The translations under genes were made by a program, and so were the position numbers. From NCBI GenBank assembly GCA_902803315.1, contig CADCPM010000037.1, forward strand, positions 1 to 64,000: 64,000 nt of DNA, in the 5' to 3' direction. How positions within the stretch are numbered: position 1 is the first letter of the stretch; each line of letters opens with the position of its first letter. Origin of the DNA: an uncultured Coriobacteriaceae bacterium. GTDB lineage: Bacteria; Actinomycetota; Coriobacteriia; Coriobacteriales; Atopobiaceae. Positions 39,941 to 49,122 of this stretch are shown piece after piece. The notes under the pieces were generated by a model. It was not told the DNA's origin. It did no database searches and saw nothing but the letters and a program-made list of their open reading frames with translations.

Positions 39941-42900
39941 ATGAAGAAGAAGGGCACGGGCTTTTGGCTTAGGAACAAGTCGTTAGCGCGCTTTATGAGC
40001 GTCTTGGTAAGCGTGTCGATGATCTTGAGCCTTTTGCCAGTTCAGGGCGTGCAAGAGGCTCGCTCTGAGTTCCTTATGGCAACGGCCATAGCGCAGGAAG
40101 ATCCCAAGACGAACGAGACCACCGACCCAGGTGGAGGCAACACGAACAACTCGTCGTCGAGTGCAGGCAGTTCGTCCACGAATGAGGGCAACACTCCCAC
40201 CGAGTCTCAGCCCGAAGGCGAGCCCGAGCCCACTAGCGAGCCCGAGCCTACAAACCAGGCTCCCGCAAACAACAGCTCTAGCAGCGACGAGCAAAGCCAA
40301 CCCGCGCAAAGCTCGTCGTCGAGCAGCAGCTCGGAAACCCCCGAGCCCGCAAAGACGCCCCAAGGTGCCAATCTTGCCGACTTCATAACCAAGGCAGAGA
40401 TCAAGGACGCCGACGATAAGGACGTTGAGGAGAAGGACGGTGTGCTGCAGGTAAAGGAAGAGCAGAAATACATTGCGAAGCTCACCTTTACCGAGAAAGA
40501 CGAAAAGCAGTTTGCCACCGAGGGAGAGCTCACCTACAAGCTGCCTGCCGGCTTTACCCCCGCAGCCGAGCAGCCCGCAGCGAAGGAAGCTCTCTTTATT
40601 ACTTATGTTGACGACAATGGCGGGCGTCAGCCCATCGAGCTCGGCAAGGAGTGCTGGTGGATTGACGGCGACACCGTACACATGGTGTGGAAGGTCCGCG
40701 ATGCCGACAAGCGCACGCAGGAAGAAATCGCAGAGGCCCTTGCCACGGTCAACGAGCTCACGAGCGTTGAGTTTGAGCTTTCGATCGCCGGCACGTTCGC
40801 CGCCGGAACCGAGTCTGTGGACTTTGGTGCCCCCACCGAGCCCATAGCGATTGAGGTCGAGGCTGCGAAGAAGGACGAGCAGCAGAAGTCCGATGAGCAG
40901 CAGAAGTCGAGCGAGGAGCAGAAGAAGGAAGAGCAGCAGAAGGACGAAGAATCTGAATCAAAGAATGCTGGCAACAATAATGGCGCGACCGCAAGTGAAG
41001 AAGAGCAAACGGGTCTTACAAATATCATTCGTCAGAAAAGCATTCTGAATTCGCAAGTCAGGAGCGTCCAGAGCATTACCACTCAAGCTGGCTTTGAGGG
41101 GGCCTTACATGCGCAGGAAGACACAAACCTTGCTTCTTTTCTAACCGACGCAACTATCAATGCTCCTAAAAACGACCAGGGCGTATACCAAGTGAATCCC
41201 GGCCAGTCCTACAACATAAGCCTCTTCTTTGCGGAGCAGCCGGATGGCATTCAGTTCCCCACGCCGGGCACGGAGATGGAGTACACCATTACCGCACAGA
41301 TTGAGAACATCAACGGAACAACGGGGACGTTTACCATCAATGTTACCGACACTTCCACAGGACAGGTTTATGCAGTACCGGGCAACACCTATAGCGTTAG
41401 CGGAAACACGCTCAAGGTAACGTTTAATCCTAATGCTCAAAACATCGACAAGCTCCTAGCTTCCGCCAACGCCCGCTTTAACGTGAGCTTTACGGGCACG
41501 ATTAAGGAGGACGCAACCCAAATCCCCTTTAGCGACAACGTGAACAAGCAAGTTCATGTAGACAACTCCTCCGACGTTACGGTTACCGGACCCGATGACT
41601 CGACGAATAGCCAAGACGTAACGGTTGAAGTGACTGACGGAAAGTCCAACACGGTTACAGTCGACAACTTGATGCCTGGTGTCTATACAGTAACTGAGGA
41701 CACGTCAAAGAACCCCAACGGCATGTCACTCCTTGGCGAAAAGTCAAAGACAGTCACGGTCTACTCACAAAACAAGAAGGATGGCGAAACGGTTGTGGAG
41801 ACGGCCGAGTTCACCAACACCAAGCCTGGCACTCCTGGCTTCGACAAGAAGATCAAGGACACCAACGACACTACGGGCGAGACCAGCGACTGGCAGGACT
41901 CCGCGGACTACGACATCGGCGATGCCGTGCCGTACAAGCTCACTGCCACGCTGCCTAAGGACGTTACGACCTACAAGAAGTACCATATCACCTTCACTGA
42001 CAAGATGGAGAACAGCCTCACCTACAACAAGGACGCCAAGATTACCGTTACCGGCAATGACGGCAAAGTAATACCCGAGTCCGAGTACGAGGTTACCAAG
42101 GTCGCCGAGAACGAGCACGACTTCGGATACACGATTACGTGGACAGGCGTAGACGAAGGGTTGATAACCAACGAAGCCCTTAACGGTGCTAAGGTAGATC
42201 TTGAGTTCACTGCTACGCTTAACAGTGATGCCGTGTTGGGTAAGGAAGGCAACGTAAATGCCTGCAAGCTAACATTTAGCAACAATCCAGAGATTGACAA
42301 GCAGGAGCAAGAGGGTGAGCTGCCTTGGGACTACGTAATCGCCTTCACCTATAAGCTGGACATCAGTAAGGTGAACGAGCATTCTATGCCGCTCAAGGGC
42401 GCAGAGTTCAAACTTCAGAAGAAAATTGCGAATGGCGACCCCAAGGAAATAGAGCTTACTGTCAATGAAAGCACGCTCCTCGGCGGTGGCAACACGTTTA
42501 CCGCCACTGGCTTGGACGACGGCGACTACATCCTTACCGAGACGGTTGCGCCCGAAGGCTACAAGAAGATCGATCCCATTGAATTTACGGTAAAGGCCGA
42601 CCACGAAAAGGATTGGAAGTACCACTCCGATCCTGAGTCCGACCCCGTGTTCGACAACGACGGTACAAAGGACAGCAATCGCCTTGGCATCCTTACCTCG
42701 CTCACGGGCGACGTTACGAAGGGCGAACTCGAGCTTACGGCAGACAAGAACCTGGAAGGTCTTGCGGGCGATGTTATCAACAAGAGTGGTGCCAACCTGG
42801 TTGTGAAGAAGAAGGTTTCCAGCTCGCGTTCCGACGACAAGACCCGCGACTACAAGTTCAAGGTCACGCTGTACAAGGACAAAGACTATAAGGAAGTCTA

Positions 42901-43282
42901 CAAGACCATCAATGGCAAGTACGGCAACATGGAGTTCAAGGACGGCGTGGCGAACTTCACGCTCAAGCACGACGAGAGCAAGGAAGCCAGCAAGCTGCCG
43001 ATTACCAAGGATGGCATCTACTACAAGGTTGAGGAGACCGACTCCGGCGACCTCACTCCAAGCATGTCCAATCCAAGAAAGTCCTTGGATGGATATACCC
43101 ACACCGTAACCTGCACCAACAGCTACAAGTCAAGCACACCCAAGAGGAGCACCTCCTCCAGGCTCGCAACAGCCAGGACGGGTGACAACACCAACAGCGC
43201 CATCGTTATAGCGCTTGTCGGCATAGGTGTGGTTGGCGTCGTAGCCGGCGTACTGTACAGGCGCCGCCGCATGAGCGAGTAA
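39941..43282 (+). CDS. Isopeptide-type pilin-like surface protein with sorting signal
   Basis: A 1113-residue secreted protein. A long signal peptide (KSLARFMSVLVSVSMILSLLP) leads into a Ser/Pro/Glu/Asn-rich low-complexity stalk (about 50-150). Later domains include a fimbrial-isopeptide-like region (DIGDAVPYKLTATLPKDV, then YHITFTDKME) and SpaA-type domains (MPLKGAEFKLQKKI and GDYILTETVAPEGYKKI). A central Lys/Glu/Gln-rich segment (about 305-345) divides the N-terminal half. The C-terminus reads TARTGDNTNSAIVIALV with a membrane helix and RRRRMSE, a sorting signal in which ARTGD replaces LPxTG. AAGGGGGAA precedes the ATG. It is probably a pilus or adhesin subunit. No sortase is encoded in the window. 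Confidence 0.85.
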   Translation: MKKKGTGFWLRNKSLARFMSVLVSVSMILSLLPVQGVQEARSEFLMATAIAQEDPKTNETTDPGGGNTNNSSSSAGSSSTNEGNTPTESQPEGEPEPTSEPEPTNQAPANNSSSSDEQSQPAQSSSSSSSSETPEPAKTPQGANLADFITKAEIKDADDKDVEEKDGVLQVKEEQKYIAKLTFTEKDEKQFATEGELTYKLPAGFTPAAEQPAAKEALFITYVDDNGGRQPIELGKECWWIDGDTVHMVWKVRDADKRTQEEIAEALATVNELTSVEFELSIAGTFAAGTESVDFGAPTEPIAIEVEAAKKDEQQKSDEQQKSSEEQKKEEQQKDEESESKNAGNNNGATASEEEQTGLTNIIRQKSILNSQVRSVQSITTQAGFEGALHAQEDTNLASFLTDATINAPKNDQGVYQVNPGQSYNISLFFAEQPDGIQFPTPGTEMEYTITAQIENINGTTGTFTINVTDTSTGQVYAVPGNTYSVSGNTLKVTFNPNAQNIDKLLASANARFNVSFTGTIKEDATQIPFSDNVNKQVHVDNSSDVTVTGPDDSTNSQDVTVEVTDGKSNTVTVDNLMPGVYTVTEDTSKNPNGMSLLGEKSKTVTVYSQNKKDGETVVETAEFTNTKPGTPGFDKKIKDTNDTTGETSDWQDSADYDIGDAVPYKLTATLPKDVTTYKKYHITFTDKMENSLTYNKDAKITVTGNDGKVIPESEYEVTKVAENEHDFGYTITWTGVDEGLITNEALNGAKVDLEFTATLNSDAVLGKEGNVNACKLTFSNNPEIDKQEQEGELPWDYVIAFTYKLDISKVNEHSMPLKGAEFKLQKKIANGDPKEIELTVNESTLLGGGNTFTATGLDDGDYILTETVAPEGYKKIDPIEFTVKADHEKDWKYHSDPESDPVFDNDGTKDSNRLGILTSLTGDVTKGELELTADKNLEGLAGDVINKSGANLVVKKKVSSSRSDDKTRDYKFKVTLYKDKDYKEVYKTINGKYGNMEFKDGVANFTLKHDESKEASKLPITKDGIYYKVEETDSGDLTPSMSNPRKSLDGYTHTVTCTNSYKSSTPKRSTSSRLATARTGDNTNSAIVIALVGIGVVGVVAGVLYRRRRMSE

Positions 43283-43638: not shown

Positions 43639-43945
43639 ATGCAAAGAGATGCGATGAACGCACCTCAATTGGAAAAGCAATCCAGTGCGCAAGCCTCTTA
43701 TGCTGTTCGGCGCGAGACAGGTGGGAAAGAGCCATCTGCTCGAGAGATTCGCTACTGAGAACTACCAAAGCTACGCCCTGCTCGACCTCGAACAAAGTGC
43801 AAGCCTACGCGCTGCGTTTGAAGGCGACCTATCCCCAAAGGCGATTCTATCGAACCTCTCGCAGCTCATACACGCACCGTTGCCAAATTACAGATACCCC
43901 TCCCACCGTGAAGTGAGTGAAGTCCACAGTGAAGTAGAGTGTTAA
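43639..43945 (+). pseudogene. Broken AAA ATPase (AAA_14/DUF4143 family) fragment
   Basis: The start MQRDAMN is in one frame, and the continuation NWKSNPVRKPLMLFGARQ with VGKSHLLERF (Walker A GARQVGKS) is in another, so a frameshift lies near 43655-43665. The frame then carries YALLDLEQSASLRAAFEGD, typical of the DUF4143-associated ATPases, but stops at 43945 after about 90 residues. The Walker B, sensor and DUF4143 parts are missing. Both a frameshift and a 3' deletion are therefore present. An intact gene would be about 400 residues. The breakpoint abuts a 19-bp hairpin. Confidence 0.75.
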
Positions 43946-43970
43946 ATTACTACACTCTACTTCACTGTGG
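43924..43970. repeat. Perfect 19-bp-arm hairpin after the ATPase fragment
   Basis: Arms 43924-43942 and 43952-43970 are perfect complements with a 9-base loop (TAAATTACT). It overlaps the end of the pseudogene and the first bases of the next palindrome. It could be a terminator or part of an inserted element. Confidence 0.9.
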
Positions 43971-43998
43971 CACAGCTATGCCAGGCATAACTGTGCCA
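43968..43998. repeat. 31-bp palindrome upstream of the GGDEF-EIIC gene
   Basis: A 31-base imperfect palindrome with outer arms TGGCACAG and CTGTGCCA. A second 31-base copy lies at 46720-46750, at the other end of the gene, and matches at 25 of 31 positions by my alignment. Confidence 0.85.
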
Positions 43999-44066
43999 CT
44001 GCCTGAGTTCGGACCTCCAAGCCCTTGCAATCGTGTTACGCTCGATAGGGAGACTAAGGGGGCAGC

Positions 44067-46742
44067 ATGCACGACAGGCGAACAGGAGGCATCGTGGCAG
44101 CGGTGACGCTCACCATTGCCGCCGCCTTTGTCGCCATTGTTCTTTTGATTATTCACACCAGCATTGACTCCGCCAAAAACCATGCCGAAAGCTCGATGGA
44201 CCTCTATGCCGCTGAGCTAACGTCCACGATCAACACGGTTGTGCGGAGCCACTTTGAGCTCGTGGACGCCTCCATGATAGACGCGGATGTGTCGCAGGCC
44301 TTCAAGCAAGAGGATGCCGGCGCGACCTCAGAGCAAACCTCGGCCACCGTTACTCCGTTGCTTGCCAAGTCGACGCCAAACGCAGAAAAGGGATTGTCGT
44401 ACGCCCTTTCGGGCACGACGCACATGATCTACAAGGCCGACGGAACGTACGAGCACATTGAGGACAAGGACTGGAGTCGGTTTTGGTTCGTGTATTCCGA
44501 TGCCGTGCGTAACAATGCGGGCGGATATCACGTGCACGGCTTCGTGGGCAAAAACGCAAACGCGAGCGAGCTCATAGTCGGCAGGGCGATTCGCGGCGAG
44601 TCAGCGCACTCTGGTACGCTGGGCGTTTTTATACCTACGTCTGCCCTAATAGACACCGTGCTCGAGCTTTGGACGGAGGAGCAGCCGAACACGATTCTGT
44701 ATAGCGCTGACGGAACGGTGCTTCTTAGCACCCAAGACCCGTCTGCTGAGGGGAAAAGCGTATACGATCTGTATCCCAACCTTGCGGGAGCGCTTGGCGA
44801 CCTGCAAAGCGGCAAGACCCAAAAGGTGCAGGTATGGGAGGGACTCGAGGGAATTCTGCCGCAGGGACAGATGCTCTACGAGGCATGGAGAAGCAACGAA
44901 ACGGGCTGCTTTGCGCTTGCTGCCTATACCGCCGAGGACATTTTTGGCCCCATGCGAGAGCGTGTGACCACGCTGGTTCTCGCGCTGTGCGTCGTTATGA
45001 TCCTGCTCCTGCTACTCGTGATGTTTATTGTGCGCTGGTATCGAACGCGCCTTATGCGCGTTGCAACAACCGACGAGCTTACGGGCTTGGCTAACCGCAA
45101 GTGGTTCTCGTCGAGCTTCGAGACGCTTAGCGAGGAGGGAATGGGCGAGGCCCATCTGGCGCTTATCGACGTAGACAAGTTCAAGGGAATCAACGACACC
45201 TACGGCCACGCCTCCGGCGACAAGGCCTTGTCTATGGTGGCGTCAAAGGTGCGTGAGGCAGCTGGTGGCAACGGCATCTCGGGACGTTGGGGCGGCGACG
45301 AGTTTATTGCCGTGCTGCGCGGACCTGTGGAGGAGGCCGAGGCTCGTGTGCAAAAGATGATCGACGCGGTTGCGGGCCAGACGATCGATGACCAGATTCA
45401 CGTGTCGGTGAGCGTCGGGCTCGCGCAGCTGCGGGACTGCGACTCTCTTGAGATTGCGGTGGAGCGTGCCGACGACGCCCTCTACGTTACCAAAGAGGGC
45501 GGGCGTGGGTTCCTTACGGTCTACGAGGAGGGCGTGACGCCGCATATGGCCAACGACCAGGTGGGCGTGGTAAGAGGACCCGCGCGACAGGCGGCGACGG
45601 AGGAGGCTGGCCCGGCAACGGACGCTTCCGGCGATGCGGAGACATCTTCGCCGAACGAGCGGCCCACGAGGTTGCAAAACGTGCGGCCAACGCTTGATCT
45701 TGTGGTAAAAAGCCTGCTAGAAGCCGTGTACAAGATGGTTCCGTTTGTGGCTGGCGGCGGCATCCTCATTGCCCTCGCATTTCTTATTGACGCTGCAAGC
45801 GTGGACGTAAACACGCTGTCGGCCGAGGCGCGCGCGAACTTTGGATCGATAACCCCCATTGCCGCGGGCTTGCGCGACGTGGGTTCGGCGGCGTTCAACT
45901 TTATGCTGCCCATCTTTGCGGCCTTCTTTGCGCGCGGACTTGCGGGTGATGAGGCGTTTATGGCGGGCTTTGCCGGCGGGTTCTTGTCTTCGCAGGGGAG
46001 TGCGGGCTTTGCCGGGGCCATTGCGGCGGCTTGCGTGGCCGCCATTGTGGTGCGTCTTATGAAAGGGTTCCTGTGCGAAACGGGTCCGCGCCTGCAGCGT
46101 GTGGCGCCGGTGCTGCTCTACCCGGTATTCTCGCTGCTCATCATGTATTTGCTGATGACCTACATCATCGATCCGGTGGCGAGTGCCTTTGATGCGGCGC
46201 TGACCTCGATGCTCGCCGCGCTGCAGGAGGGGAGCGGCGTGGTGATGGGCGCCGTGTGTGGCGCCATGATGGCAACCGACATGGGCGGCCCCATAAACAA
46301 GGCGGCGTACCACTTTGGCGTTGCCTCCATTGCGTCTGGCTCGCCGAACATCATGGCCTCCGTTATGGTGGGCGGCATGGTGCCTCCGTGCGGAATCGCC
46401 CTTTGCATGCTGCTGTTCCGCAACAAGTTTGACGAGGAGGCGCGTGACCAGGGGGCTGCGACGCTGTTTATGGGTCTGTCGTTTATTACCGAAGGCGCCT
46501 TGCCTTTCGTGCTTACCGACCCGCTTCGCGTGATTCCCTCGTGCATGGTTGGCTCGGCCGTGGCAGGCGGGCTCTCCGAGGCGTTTGGATGCACGCTCGT
46601 GGCGCCTCATGGGGGGATTTTCGTTATCCCCGTTGTGGGCAATCCGGTTTTGTACCTGTGCGCGTTGGTGGCGGGCTCAATGGCCTGTGCCGTAATGCTT
46701 GGCCTCCTCAAGCGCAAGGTGGCACAGTTAAACCAAGTATAA
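44067..46742 (+). CDS. Diguanylate cyclase fused to a fructose-type PTS EIIC domain
   Basis: An 891-residue fusion. Residues about 10-30 are a membrane helix. About 35-300 form an extracellular Cache-like sensor, and a second helix follows (LVLALCVVMILLLLLVMFIV). About 335-490 form a GGDEF domain with TTDELTGLANRKWF, DVDKFKGINDTYGH and an intact RWGGDEF near 407-413. After a linker, residues about 541-891 form a PTS EIIC permease of the fructose family (MVPFVAGGGILIALAF, GPINKAAYHFGV, SFITEGALPFVLTDP and APHGGIFVIPVV). No EIIA or EIIB domain is encoded here or nearby. The EIIC part may therefore act as a sugar sensor for c-di-GMP synthesis rather than as a transporter. No inhibitory-site RxxD is evident before GGDEF. 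Confidence 0.9.
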   Translation: MHDRRTGGIVAAVTLTIAAAFVAIVLLIIHTSIDSAKNHAESSMDLYAAELTSTINTVVRSHFELVDASMIDADVSQAFKQEDAGATSEQTSATVTPLLAKSTPNAEKGLSYALSGTTHMIYKADGTYEHIEDKDWSRFWFVYSDAVRNNAGGYHVHGFVGKNANASELIVGRAIRGESAHSGTLGVFIPTSALIDTVLELWTEEQPNTILYSADGTVLLSTQDPSAEGKSVYDLYPNLAGALGDLQSGKTQKVQVWEGLEGILPQGQMLYEAWRSNETGCFALAAYTAEDIFGPMRERVTTLVLALCVVMILLLLLVMFIVRWYRTRLMRVATTDELTGLANRKWFSSSFETLSEEGMGEAHLALIDVDKFKGINDTYGHASGDKALSMVASKVREAAGGNGISGRWGGDEFIAVLRGPVEEAEARVQKMIDAVAGQTIDDQIHVSVSVGLAQLRDCDSLEIAVERADDALYVTKEGGRGFLTVYEEGVTPHMANDQVGVVRGPARQAATEEAGPATDASGDAETSSPNERPTRLQNVRPTLDLVVKSLLEAVYKMVPFVAGGGILIALAFLIDAASVDVNTLSAEARANFGSITPIAAGLRDVGSAAFNFMLPIFAAFFARGLAGDEAFMAGFAGGFLSSQGSAGFAGAIAAACVAAIVVRLMKGFLCETGPRLQRVAPVLLYPVFSLLIMYLLMTYIIDPVASAFDAALTSMLAALQEGSGVVMGAVCGAMMATDMGGPINKAAYHFGVASIASGSPNIMASVMVGGMVPPCGIALCMLLFRNKFDEEARDQGAATLFMGLSFITEGALPFVLTDPLRVIPSCMVGSAVAGGLSEAFGCTLVAPHGGIFVIPVVGNPVLYLCALVAGSMACAVMLGLLKRKVAQLNQV

Positions 46743-46754: not shown

Positions 46755-47930
46755 CTAGTTGTCCTCGTCGTCCTCGTGGGTGATTCCCACCGATCTGCCA
46801 AGGACCGCGTGCTTCGTGCGCCGATGCCACAAAAAGTATTCGTAGCCAAAGGCGGCGTATATGGCCAGCACATGGCAAACAAGCCCGATGGCGGGATCGA
46901 AGCTCGTCAGGACGCCCACTGCAATAATGAAGACACACACCGCAATCCTACCGATTATGTAATAGATTGAGTAGCGATATTCGGGCTTGTTGTAGCGTCC
47001 CAGCAAAAACGAAGTGAGCAGGTAGAGCACCAGGCACGCAGACAGGTAGATGCTCTTGGGAATAAAGTCGATCTCGTCGCGGGGCATGTAGTTCAGCGCC
47101 ACGGTGAGGTTGCCAATAATCACGATGAGCCACGACGAAATTGTCATGTACGTCATGCCGTCGGTTTTGGCGTGGTGGTCCAGCATGTGGTCGTGTTCGA
47201 AGATGTATATGAGGAATAAGCCCACTACCAGCAGGAATACGCCAACGGGATAGAGCATGGACGATACGTCTACCATGTACGACGAGATTCCCACCAGCAT
47301 TTCTCCAAAGGCGATAATGGTGAGCAGCGAGCAGCGCTCCGCCACGTGGTCAAAGCGCGCGTGCTTGATGCGATGTCGGCTGGAGAATACCCAGATGAGC
47401 ATGCCAAACAAAAGCGCGATCCACGACGTAAGCTCGCTGGGAATTTTGGCCAGGAAGGCGCCGGAAATCGCAATGGCAGCTTGTATCAGCAGGGTGATGG
47501 CCGATCCGCGCATTTGGCGGCGGTCGTCCTCGTCCAAGTTGGTGTAGGTGCGTAGCTTGATGATCCACTGGATTGCGAGGTTCACAAGGATGCCGGCCCA
47601 GGTGACGTTAAAGAGCCGGGCGGTTTCCGTCCAATCCTGCCGTACTCCGTTGGCCAAAAAGTACAGCAGGAACATGTTTATAAAGAGGCTCACGCACTCT
47701 ATGGGAGAGCGGTCGCTGTAGCGATTGAGCAGGAGCGTGGAGTAGAACCAAACCTGCAGGACTACAAGAAAGCAAAACAGGTAGATGAGCCAGGTGCCCA
47801 TATCCAAGAAGCCACCCTGTATGCCGTGACACAGCGACGTGATTACGCTAATGGCATATACGAAGATAAGATCGTAGAAAAGTTCGATGTTCGATACGCC
47901 CTCAACGAGGGCGAGTGCTCGTTTGTGCAT
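46755..47930 (-). CDS. Low-temperature-requirement protein A (LtrA)-like membrane protein
   Basis: A 391-residue membrane protein with about ten hydrophobic segments. The start VEGVSNIELFYDLIFVYAIS and the middle HVAERCSLLTIIAFGEMLVGIS are the LtrA family hallmarks. LtrA was named from a Listeria low-temperature growth mutant and its molecular function is unknown. I chose the ATG at 47930 because GGAGG lies ahead of it; the in-frame extension upstream is Pro/Arg-rich and not protein-like. It converges on the GGDEF-EIIC gene with a 12-base gap. Confidence 0.9.
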   Translation of the reverse strand: MHKRALALVEGVSNIELFYDLIFVYAISVITSLCHGIQGGFLDMGTWLIYLFCFLVVLQVWFYSTLLLNRYSDRSPIECVSLFINMFLLYFLANGVRQDWTETARLFNVTWAGILVNLAIQWIIKLRTYTNLDEDDRRQMRGSAITLLIQAAIAISGAFLAKIPSELTSWIALLFGMLIWVFSSRHRIKHARFDHVAERCSLLTIIAFGEMLVGISSYMVDVSSMLYPVGVFLLVVGLFLIYIFEHDHMLDHHAKTDGMTYMTISSWLIVIIGNLTVALNYMPRDEIDFIPKSIYLSACLVLYLLTSFLLGRYNKPEYRYSIYYIIGRIAVCVFIIAVGVLTSFDPAIGLVCHVLAIYAAFGYEYFLWHRRTKHAVLGRSVGITHEDDEDN

Positions 47931-48020
47931 GCTGGCCTCCACTCCTCTTAGTGCAAGAGTATAGGCAAAGTTGGGGGTCGGGCGTAGGGTTGGGGCATAC
48001 GCAGGCTGGGGCTGGACGCA

Positions 48021-48062
48021 AAGTTGGGGACCGTCCCCAGGATTTGGGACGGTCCCCGAGTT
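48021..48062. repeat. GGGGACCGTCCC palindrome
   Basis: AAGTTGGGGACCGTCCC (48021-48037) and GGGACGGTCCCCGAGTT (48046-48062) pair with two mismatches around an 8-base loop. It lies 22 bases after the stop of the 48085-49122 gene, as expected for a 3' hairpin. Confidence 0.9.
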
Positions 48063-48084
48063 GCGGCGCTTGTTTGAGGGGTGC

Positions 48085-49122
48085 TTATGCTGCTGCGGGT
48101 TCGGTGGTGGCTTCGGTCTTTTGCTCGGTGTCGTTCTGGGTCTTGGGTTCGGCCTTTTCCTCGGCCTTGGGCTCGGTGCTGTTCTGGGTCTTGTCTTCGG
48201 TCTTTTCTTCGGGCTTGGGCTGAGCGGCTTTGTTCTCGAGCTTTGCGATGCGGTCCTGGAGCTTCTGGGGTACTTCCTTGCCGTTGCGGACAAGTGCGTC
48301 GCGCTTGTTGTAGAGCTTTACCAGGGTTGCGCGCTCTTCGTCGTTGAGGTTGTTCATGCCGGCTACGCGCTCCTCGTTGGCTTTGGCTGCGGCTTCTGCC
48401 TCGGCCTTCGCCTTGGCCTTGGCCTCGGCTGCCTTCTTCTCTGCCTCGGCCTTGGCCTTGGCCTCGGCTTCGGCCTTCGCCTTTGCCTCGGCCGCCTTCT
48501 TCTCTGCCTCGGCCTTGGCCTTGGCCTCGGCTTCTGCCTTCGCCTTGGCCTCGGCTGCCTTCTTCTCTGCCTCGGCCTTGGCCTTGTCGTTCGCATTGGC
48601 GGAAGGCTTTGCCTGCTTGTTGCTGGCGGTTGCAGACTCGCTGGTTCCGGCCTCGTTTTCCTGGTTGTTTACCGTGGCGCTCTGGGTGTTCTCGGTTCCC
48701 TCGTAATCGCTGTAGTCGTAGTCGGAATCGTCGTAGTCAACATAGTCAGAGTCATCGTAATCGCTGTAGTCATACTCTGCATCGTCGTAGTCGCCGTAAT
48801 CGTAGTCGGAATCGTCGTACGCATACTCTTCGTACTCCTCGCCTGCGGTGGTGCCGTTTGCAGCAGATCCTCCATTGGCCGTCTGATTGCCGGTGGCGTA
48901 CGTCGCATCGTCCAGGACGAGCAGCTCTTCTTCGGCCTGGCCTTCGGTTGGGGCGACGGTGGCTGTCTTGGTTGCGTTCTGAGTTGGCTGGCTCTTGAGT
49001 TGACGCTGAAGCGAAGCGTTGGAGCCCATGGTGTAGGTTGCGACTCCGGTGCCGGTAAGGGCGATTGCGATGGCGGCTGCCACGGCGACTTTCTTGGCGT
49101 TGATATTGTTGGTGGCCTTCAT
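48085..49122 (-). CDS. Secreted repeat-rich protein (Asp/Tyr stalk and Lys/Ala/Glu helix)
   Basis: A 345-residue protein of unknown family. It has an N-terminal signal or anchor helix (VAVAAAIAIALTGTGVATY) and an Asp/Tyr/Ser-rich segment (about 95-145, with DDSDYDYSDY units). A TolA-like Lys/Ala/Glu helix follows, built from a 21-residue unit (KAEAEKKAAEAKAKAEAEA) repeated about three times, then a short globular part (MNNLNDEERATLVKLYNKRD) and a Thr/Glu/Lys-rich tail. No sorting signal is visible. I chose the ATG at 49122 because AGGAG lies six bases before it. The helix DNA repeats are prone to length variation. Confidence 0.75.
   Translation of the reverse strand: MKATNNINAKKVAVAAAIAIALTGTGVATYTMGSNASLQRQLKSQPTQNATKTATVAPTEGQAEEELLVLDDATYATGNQTANGGSAANGTTAGEEYEEYAYDDSDYDYGDYDDAEYDYSDYDDSDYVDYDDSDYDYSDYEGTENTQSATVNNQENEAGTSESATASNKQAKPSANANDKAKAEAEKKAAEAKAKAEAEAKAKAEAEKKAAEAKAKAEAEAKAKAEAEKKAAEAKAKAKAEAEAAAKANEERVAGMNNLNDEERATLVKLYNKRDALVRNGKEVPQKLQDRIAKLENKAAQPKPEEKTEDKTQNSTEPKAEEKAEPKTQNDTEQKTEATTEPAAA

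Follow-up and report, generated by a model that had tools for sequence, protein, structure and literature searches.

The gene at positions 44067-46742 of the window, by which we mean the whole analysed stretch of 64,000 nucleotides, belongs to a family of proteins in which a predicted diguanylate cyclase is joined to a complete fructose-type PTS EIIC domain. New are the fusion family itself, its single origin, its spread over two phyla and the signature of repurposing in its EIIC half; sugar sensing and cyclase activity are the functions that its members would combine. Our preferred reading, to which we give somewhat better than even chances, is that of a dimeric membrane diguanylate cyclase with two inputs, namely a classical sensor and an EIIC domain that would bind sugar without transporting it.

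Organization of the fusion gene

The open reading frame is unbroken from its ATG to its TAA codon and encodes, from the N- to the C-terminus, a transmembrane (TM) helix, an extracytoplasmic domain, a second TM helix, a GGDEF domain, a linker of about 55 residues and the EIIC domain. The features are located as follows.

44067..46742, + strand: whole fusion gene, sensor-TM-GGDEF-linker-EIIC, 891 aa (open reading frame and domain matches)
44088..44156, + strand: TM helix 1, residues ~8-30 (hydropathy, centred near 14-28; predicted helix)
44157..44966, + strand: extracytoplasmic domain without family match, residues 31-300 (beta-rich part 204-290)
44238..44666, + strand: lineage-specific sensor insert, residues ~58-200 (alignments; restricted to G001 and the window copy)
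44967..45047, + strand: TM helix 2, residues ~301-327 (hydropathy, centred near 305-319; predicted helix)
45063..45506, + strand: GGDEF diguanylate cyclase domain, residues 333-480 (Pfam, E 3.4e-31)
45291..45305, + strand: active-site GGDEF motif, residues 409-413, RxxD inhibitory site upstream absent (motif scan)
45528..45695, + strand: variable, low-confidence linker, residues 488-543 (pLDDT; dN/dS 0.37)
45696..46712, + strand: fructose-type PTS EIIC domain, residues 544-882 (TIGR01427; predicted fold)
45945..45953, + strand: GDE at the position where ordinary EIICs have the D(R/K)P motif, residues 627-629 (residue comparison)
46278..46310, + strand: DMGGPINKAAY, core motif retained, residues 738-748 (residue comparison)
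46482..46493, + strand: FITE, core motif retained, residues 806-809 (residue comparison)
46602..46616, + strand: APHGG, core motif retained, residues 846-850 (residue comparison)

Purifying selection is strong on both the GGDEF and the EIIC half. NG86 counts from a single genome pair, the window gene and its equivalent in G001 of the same genus, gave dN/dS values of 0.083 for GGDEF and 0.095 for EIIC; the linker reached 0.37 and the sensor insert 0.285. The predicted model assigns a pLDDT below 50 to linker residues 490-539; the linker is long and variable, so that EIIC and GGDEF show no sign of being rigidly coupled.

The GGDEF domain scores 108.6 bits against a curated Pfam cut-off of 23.8, and the GG(D/E)EF, DxDxFK, ND and GHxxGD residues of the window protein are all intact, in accordance with the sequence-only reading, which had called this domain intact. 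All 13 fused proteins known to us have the GGDEF motif together with the D-x-D-x-F-K and N-D residues; a single one has SHTVGD in place of GHxxGD, and the RxxD inhibitory site, which is optional for the family, is absent from all of them. The window protein is thus a predicted diguanylate cyclase, whose output would be c-di-GMP.

The N-terminal part is less conserved. A single predicted helix (residues 290-333) runs without interruption from TM helix 2 into the GGDEF domain of the structure model, which shows the beta-rich part of the sensor with a pLDDT of about 73-85 and leaves residues 66-187 without confident structure. The alignment documents a sensor that varies next to a constant GGDEF-EIIC part, residues 58-200 being mostly absent from the copies in G002 and G012. 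A Pfam search of nine homologues retrieved no Cache family even at E<=1. The designation "Cache-like", proposed from the sequence at first sight, is accordingly not supported as a family assignment; its basis is topology and the secondary structure predicted around residues 204-290.

Distribution of the fusion

The fusion is carried by four of the 16 genomes of the genus, namely, that of the window, G001, G002 and G012, the last three with 82%, 67% and 58% identity to the window protein. A scan of genome contigs detected fused frames with 43-46% identity in rumen Lachnospiraceae, Oribacterium and Oscillibacter; the Oribacterium hosts include P6A1 and NK2B42, neither of whose records is marked as a MAG. 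Four fusions, three of them new, were found among 397 sampled genomes of the Oribacterium family. Butyrivibrio fibrisolvens D1 carries one more fusion on its plasmid pNP243, the record of which is complete and originates from the bovine rumen; this brings the total to 13 fused proteins with the same layout. The annotation of this plasmid gene (L156:5527-8739; NZ_CP146964.1, WP_338802811.1) mentions the fructose EIIC only.

A profile search at E<=1e-95 in 396 genomes of the window's phylum retrieved the fusion in the window's own genome alone; the other eight matches comprise the EIIC part alone, in frames of 620-714 aa. The strongest non-fused match in this sample reached about 1e-101, whereas approximately 70 of the 397 genomes of the Oribacterium family gave matches of 1e-116 to 1e-146. 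Because these matches are so much stronger, the Oribacterium family is hardly part of the window's phylum, and the hosts of the fusion would span two phyla. A viral origin was rejected, since viral contigs gave no match to the fusion and matches in phage records cover less than 80% of the query; the five phage matches listed are all EIIC-only.

Single origin of the GGDEF-EIIC joint

The EIIC domains were compared with those of ordinary fructose IIABC proteins. In the maximum-likelihood tree one branch separates 12 fused from 48 ordinary EIICs with a support of 100/100, and it is recovered in all 200 bootstrap trees. The split persists when the Butyrivibrio sequence is included in a quick tree (13 fused versus 47 ordinary EIICs, SH-aLRT 100). 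This phylogeny indicates that the joint between GGDEF and EIIC arose once and is common to the members in both phyla.

The GGDEF tree is weaker: it unites the 13 fused domains with a sole unfused sequence, L030, but in a group with a basal support of only 18. The grouping of the window's genus with Butyrivibrio and L030 has a support of 98. L030 (L030:525-1601), from a Lachnospiraceae MAG, encodes an unfused membrane GGDEF protein that may represent either an ancestor-like form or a secondary loss of EIIC. It resembles the window protein in its TM-extracytoplasmic-TM-GGDEF organization, the layout of membrane sensor diguanylate cyclases, and in its GGDEF domain (48% identity), but lacks the EIIC domain.

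The window EIIC shares 49-55% identity with its counterparts in ordinary Lachnospiraceae IIABC proteins, but only 39-46% with EIICs from its own genus, family and order. This closer relationship to Lachnospiraceae than to its own order is consistent with a horizontal transfer.

Residues kept and lost in the EIIC half

The NCBIfam profile for fructose EIICs, TIGR01427, matches with an E value of 7e-91 and 305 bits (cut-off 157.55) over positions 13-346 of its 346, and Pfam PTS_EIIC matches residues 557-829 (E 2.2e-16). EIIA and EIIB domains were not detected in the chain with Pfam. The two databases thus agree with the initial description of a GGDEF domain combined with a full fructose-type EIIC in a protein that has neither EIIA nor EIIB. 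The structure model of the EIIC is confident (pLDDT 90.7, pTM 0.87), and its best solved matches are PTS EIICs, i.e., trehalose PTTBC, PtsG and MalT (Foldseek, E<=2e-4), followed by ChbC as a weaker one; a search with a 42-row sequence profile at E<=10 retrieved no solved structure.

We compared alignment columns between 47 ordinary and 12 fused EIICs. Of the 110 columns that are nearly invariant in the ordinary set (at least 97%), 56 are retained in all 12 fused EIICs, but the columns were chosen for their invariance in ordinary EIICs, so that some loss in the fused set is expected. The retained positions include D738, G740, G741, N744, K745, Y748, F806, I807, E809, D818 and A846-G850, and every fused EIIC has preserved the D-x-GG-x-N-K-x-x-Y, ITE and APHGG motifs. 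Conversely, S555, D627 (always replaced by G) and P629 are altered in 12 of 12 fused EIICs, and R628 is kept in one. The Butyrivibrio protein has also lost S555, D627 and P629 while keeping H556, which extends the loss to all 13 members. The 47 ordinary EIICs retain or conservatively replace S555, D627, R628 and P629; E. coli FruA has S, D, R and P, and even MngA, which serves another sugar, has S, D and P, with K in the place of R. Eight further columns are invariant among the 12 fused EIICs and specific to them.

The universal loss of S555, D627 and P629, their retention in FruA and MngA and the eight fused-specific columns are the stronger points of this comparison. Loss combined with newly invariant positions is what a change of function, rather than decay, would produce. 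In the model D627 is placed in a break between two helices; judging from an N-in topology and the order of the model helices, it would lie together with S555 at the cytoplasmic face, the presumed docking side for EIIB. Because the fused EIICs lack S555 as well as the D(R/K)P motif, which even FruA and MngA keep, a role as sugar-binding input is likelier for them than one as functional PTS permease. With 13 fused and 47 ordinary EIICs at hand, a few residues appear to separate the presumed sensor from the transporter, and transport versus sensing is therefore testable within one fold.

Links to sugars in related proteins

One example of an association with sugars is the Butyrivibrio fusion, which has a length of 1070 aa and carries a Peripla_BP_4 domain beyond the EIIC (Pfam, E 5.1e-50), with RbsB as its best substrate-binding match in NCBIfam. 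A lipobox-like stretch lies between EIIC and Peripla_BP_4, and because it precedes the latter, the C-terminal sugar-binding part may be a fused lipoprotein; one residue of the protein sequence is an ambiguous X. Another example is G847, where a ROK glucokinase gene (L126:3749-4672) follows the fused gene on the same strand at a distance of about 19 bp. In Oribacterium RUI013 the fusion adjoins a gene for a LacI-type sugar-binding domain with GGDEF (L029:10072-12378, - strand). The neighbouring genes scanned around the window fusion gene include no sugar genes and no genes for EIIA or EIIB. The original proposal of a sugar permease as the input of the cyclase is hence strengthened in its connection with sugars, via the RbsB-like domain and the glucokinase of the relatives, and revised with respect to the permease, the loss of S555, D627 and P629 making a sensor likelier.

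Proposed mechanism and alternatives

In the preferred reading the extracytoplasmic domain would signal through TM helix 2 to the GGDEF domain, which is the usual route. The C-terminal EIIC appears to descend from a fructose PTS permease, and the GGDEF domain occupies the place of EIIB in the IIABC order. The EIIC most likely binds sugar and probably no longer accepts phosphoryl groups from EIIB; its conformation or dimer state would determine how the two GGDEF domains of the dimer meet, thereby raising or lowering c-di-GMP. The pattern suggests that an uptake domain of old origin is now reused as a sugar sensor. The more comprehensive scenario, in which EIIC is a sugar receptor without transport that acts as a transmembrane c-di-GMP input, in some members assisted by a sugar-binding protein, and in which the genes have been exchanged between two phyla, partly on plasmids, is proposed tentatively, its chances being a little below even.

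The main competitor, which we consider unlikely, is an EIIC that still works as a fructose permease and is phosphorylated in trans through EIIB from the cell's ordinary fructose PTS, with the flux tuning the cyclase. The retention of the core sugar and phosphotransfer motifs would be equally consistent with transport, and a partner is at hand: EIIB domains are present in 16 of 16 genomes of the genus and in four of five Bacillota hosts, and the window genome itself encodes, apart from the fusion, an EIIC and an EIIB of the fructose type that are divided between contig ends. The fifth host, G448, in whose possibly incomplete genome no EIIB was found, speaks against this explanation, as does the loss of S555, D627 and P629 throughout the family.

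An EIIC that only anchors and dimerises the cyclase and senses nothing is even less probable. ChbC and MalT, transporters of the EIIC fold, form dimers, and the conserved transporter surface is partly lost in the fused proteins, which would suit such a role. However, the core motif residues are invariant, the EIIC is under tighter selection than a mere anchor requires, and relatives are linked to a sugar-binding domain (Butyrivibrio) and to glucokinase (G847). We regard it as very improbable that the signal runs in reverse, i.e., that a GGDEF domain standing for EIIA-EIIB on the N-terminal side of EIIC gates the transporter by binding GTP or c-di-GMP: that position would fit, but the motif is intact throughout, unlike in the usual degenerate receptor GGDEFs, and the RxxD site for c-di-GMP is missing. 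A chimera from the assembly, or a chance read-through across two adjacent genes, is finally ruled out despite the draft state of the window genome (122 contigs), because the frame is open in 13 homologous proteins with one origin in the EIIC trees; among these, one comes from a plasmid with a complete record and others belong to another phylum, which excludes a joining error.

Comparison with known systems

The fused EIIC shares the whole domain, the core motifs and the glucose-superfamily fold with the fructose PTS EIICs (TIGR01427; FruA, IIABC), but the window protein differs from IIABC and FruA in the absence of EIIA and EIIB, the loss of S555 and D627-R628-P629 and the fusion to GGDEF. A precedent by domain content is provided by the ammonium-transporter chains with a GGDEF stretch in the PDB (8qj3, 8qj4, 8qpf), which likewise combine, according to molecule name and GGDEF match, a transporter with GGDEF; the transporter family is, however, unrelated, and their GGDEF is C-terminal. 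If the preferred reading is true, PTS permeases join the transporters turned receptors, with sugar and c-di-GMP coupled within one chain, and a handle would be gained on how sugar supply lets gut and rumen bacteria decide whether to attach or to move.

The literature searched contained no experimental work on a GGDEF-EIIC protein, which bears out the earlier statement that none has been characterised, and a survey of c-di-GMP proteins in C. difficile reportedly lists EIIC-EAL proteins. The domain pairing as such is not new to the literature. A 2022 review names PTS_EIIC among the rare domains found in c-di-GMP proteins and treats it as a phosphoreceiver (PMC8846402); the domain families paired there are the same, but counted only as an architecture. 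According to the same source, EIIA-Glc of Vibrio cholerae controls the phosphodiesterase PdeS, and a PTS component thus governs c-di-GMP turnover there as well (PMC8846402). In Vibrio, however, separate proteins are involved, with EIIA, a phosphodiesterase and the phosphorylation state as the elements, in contrast to EIIC and a cyclase in one chain.

Surroundings of the gene in the window

Two tRNAs are the only RNA elements of the window. The fusion gene is convergent with an LtrA family gene (46755-48293, - strand), which was not seen at the syntenic place in G001. The upstream neighbour (39941-43282) encodes a large surface protein that combines a SpaA prealbumin-like domain with a tail at its C-terminus resembling a sorting signal. 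Just upstream of the fusion gene lie an apparently truncated frame fragment that is similar to the start of an AAA-type ATPase (43700-43945; MLFGARQVGKSHLLERF) and, at 43924-43999, a 16-nt inverted repeat whose end is overlapped by a perfect 19-nt inverted repeat.
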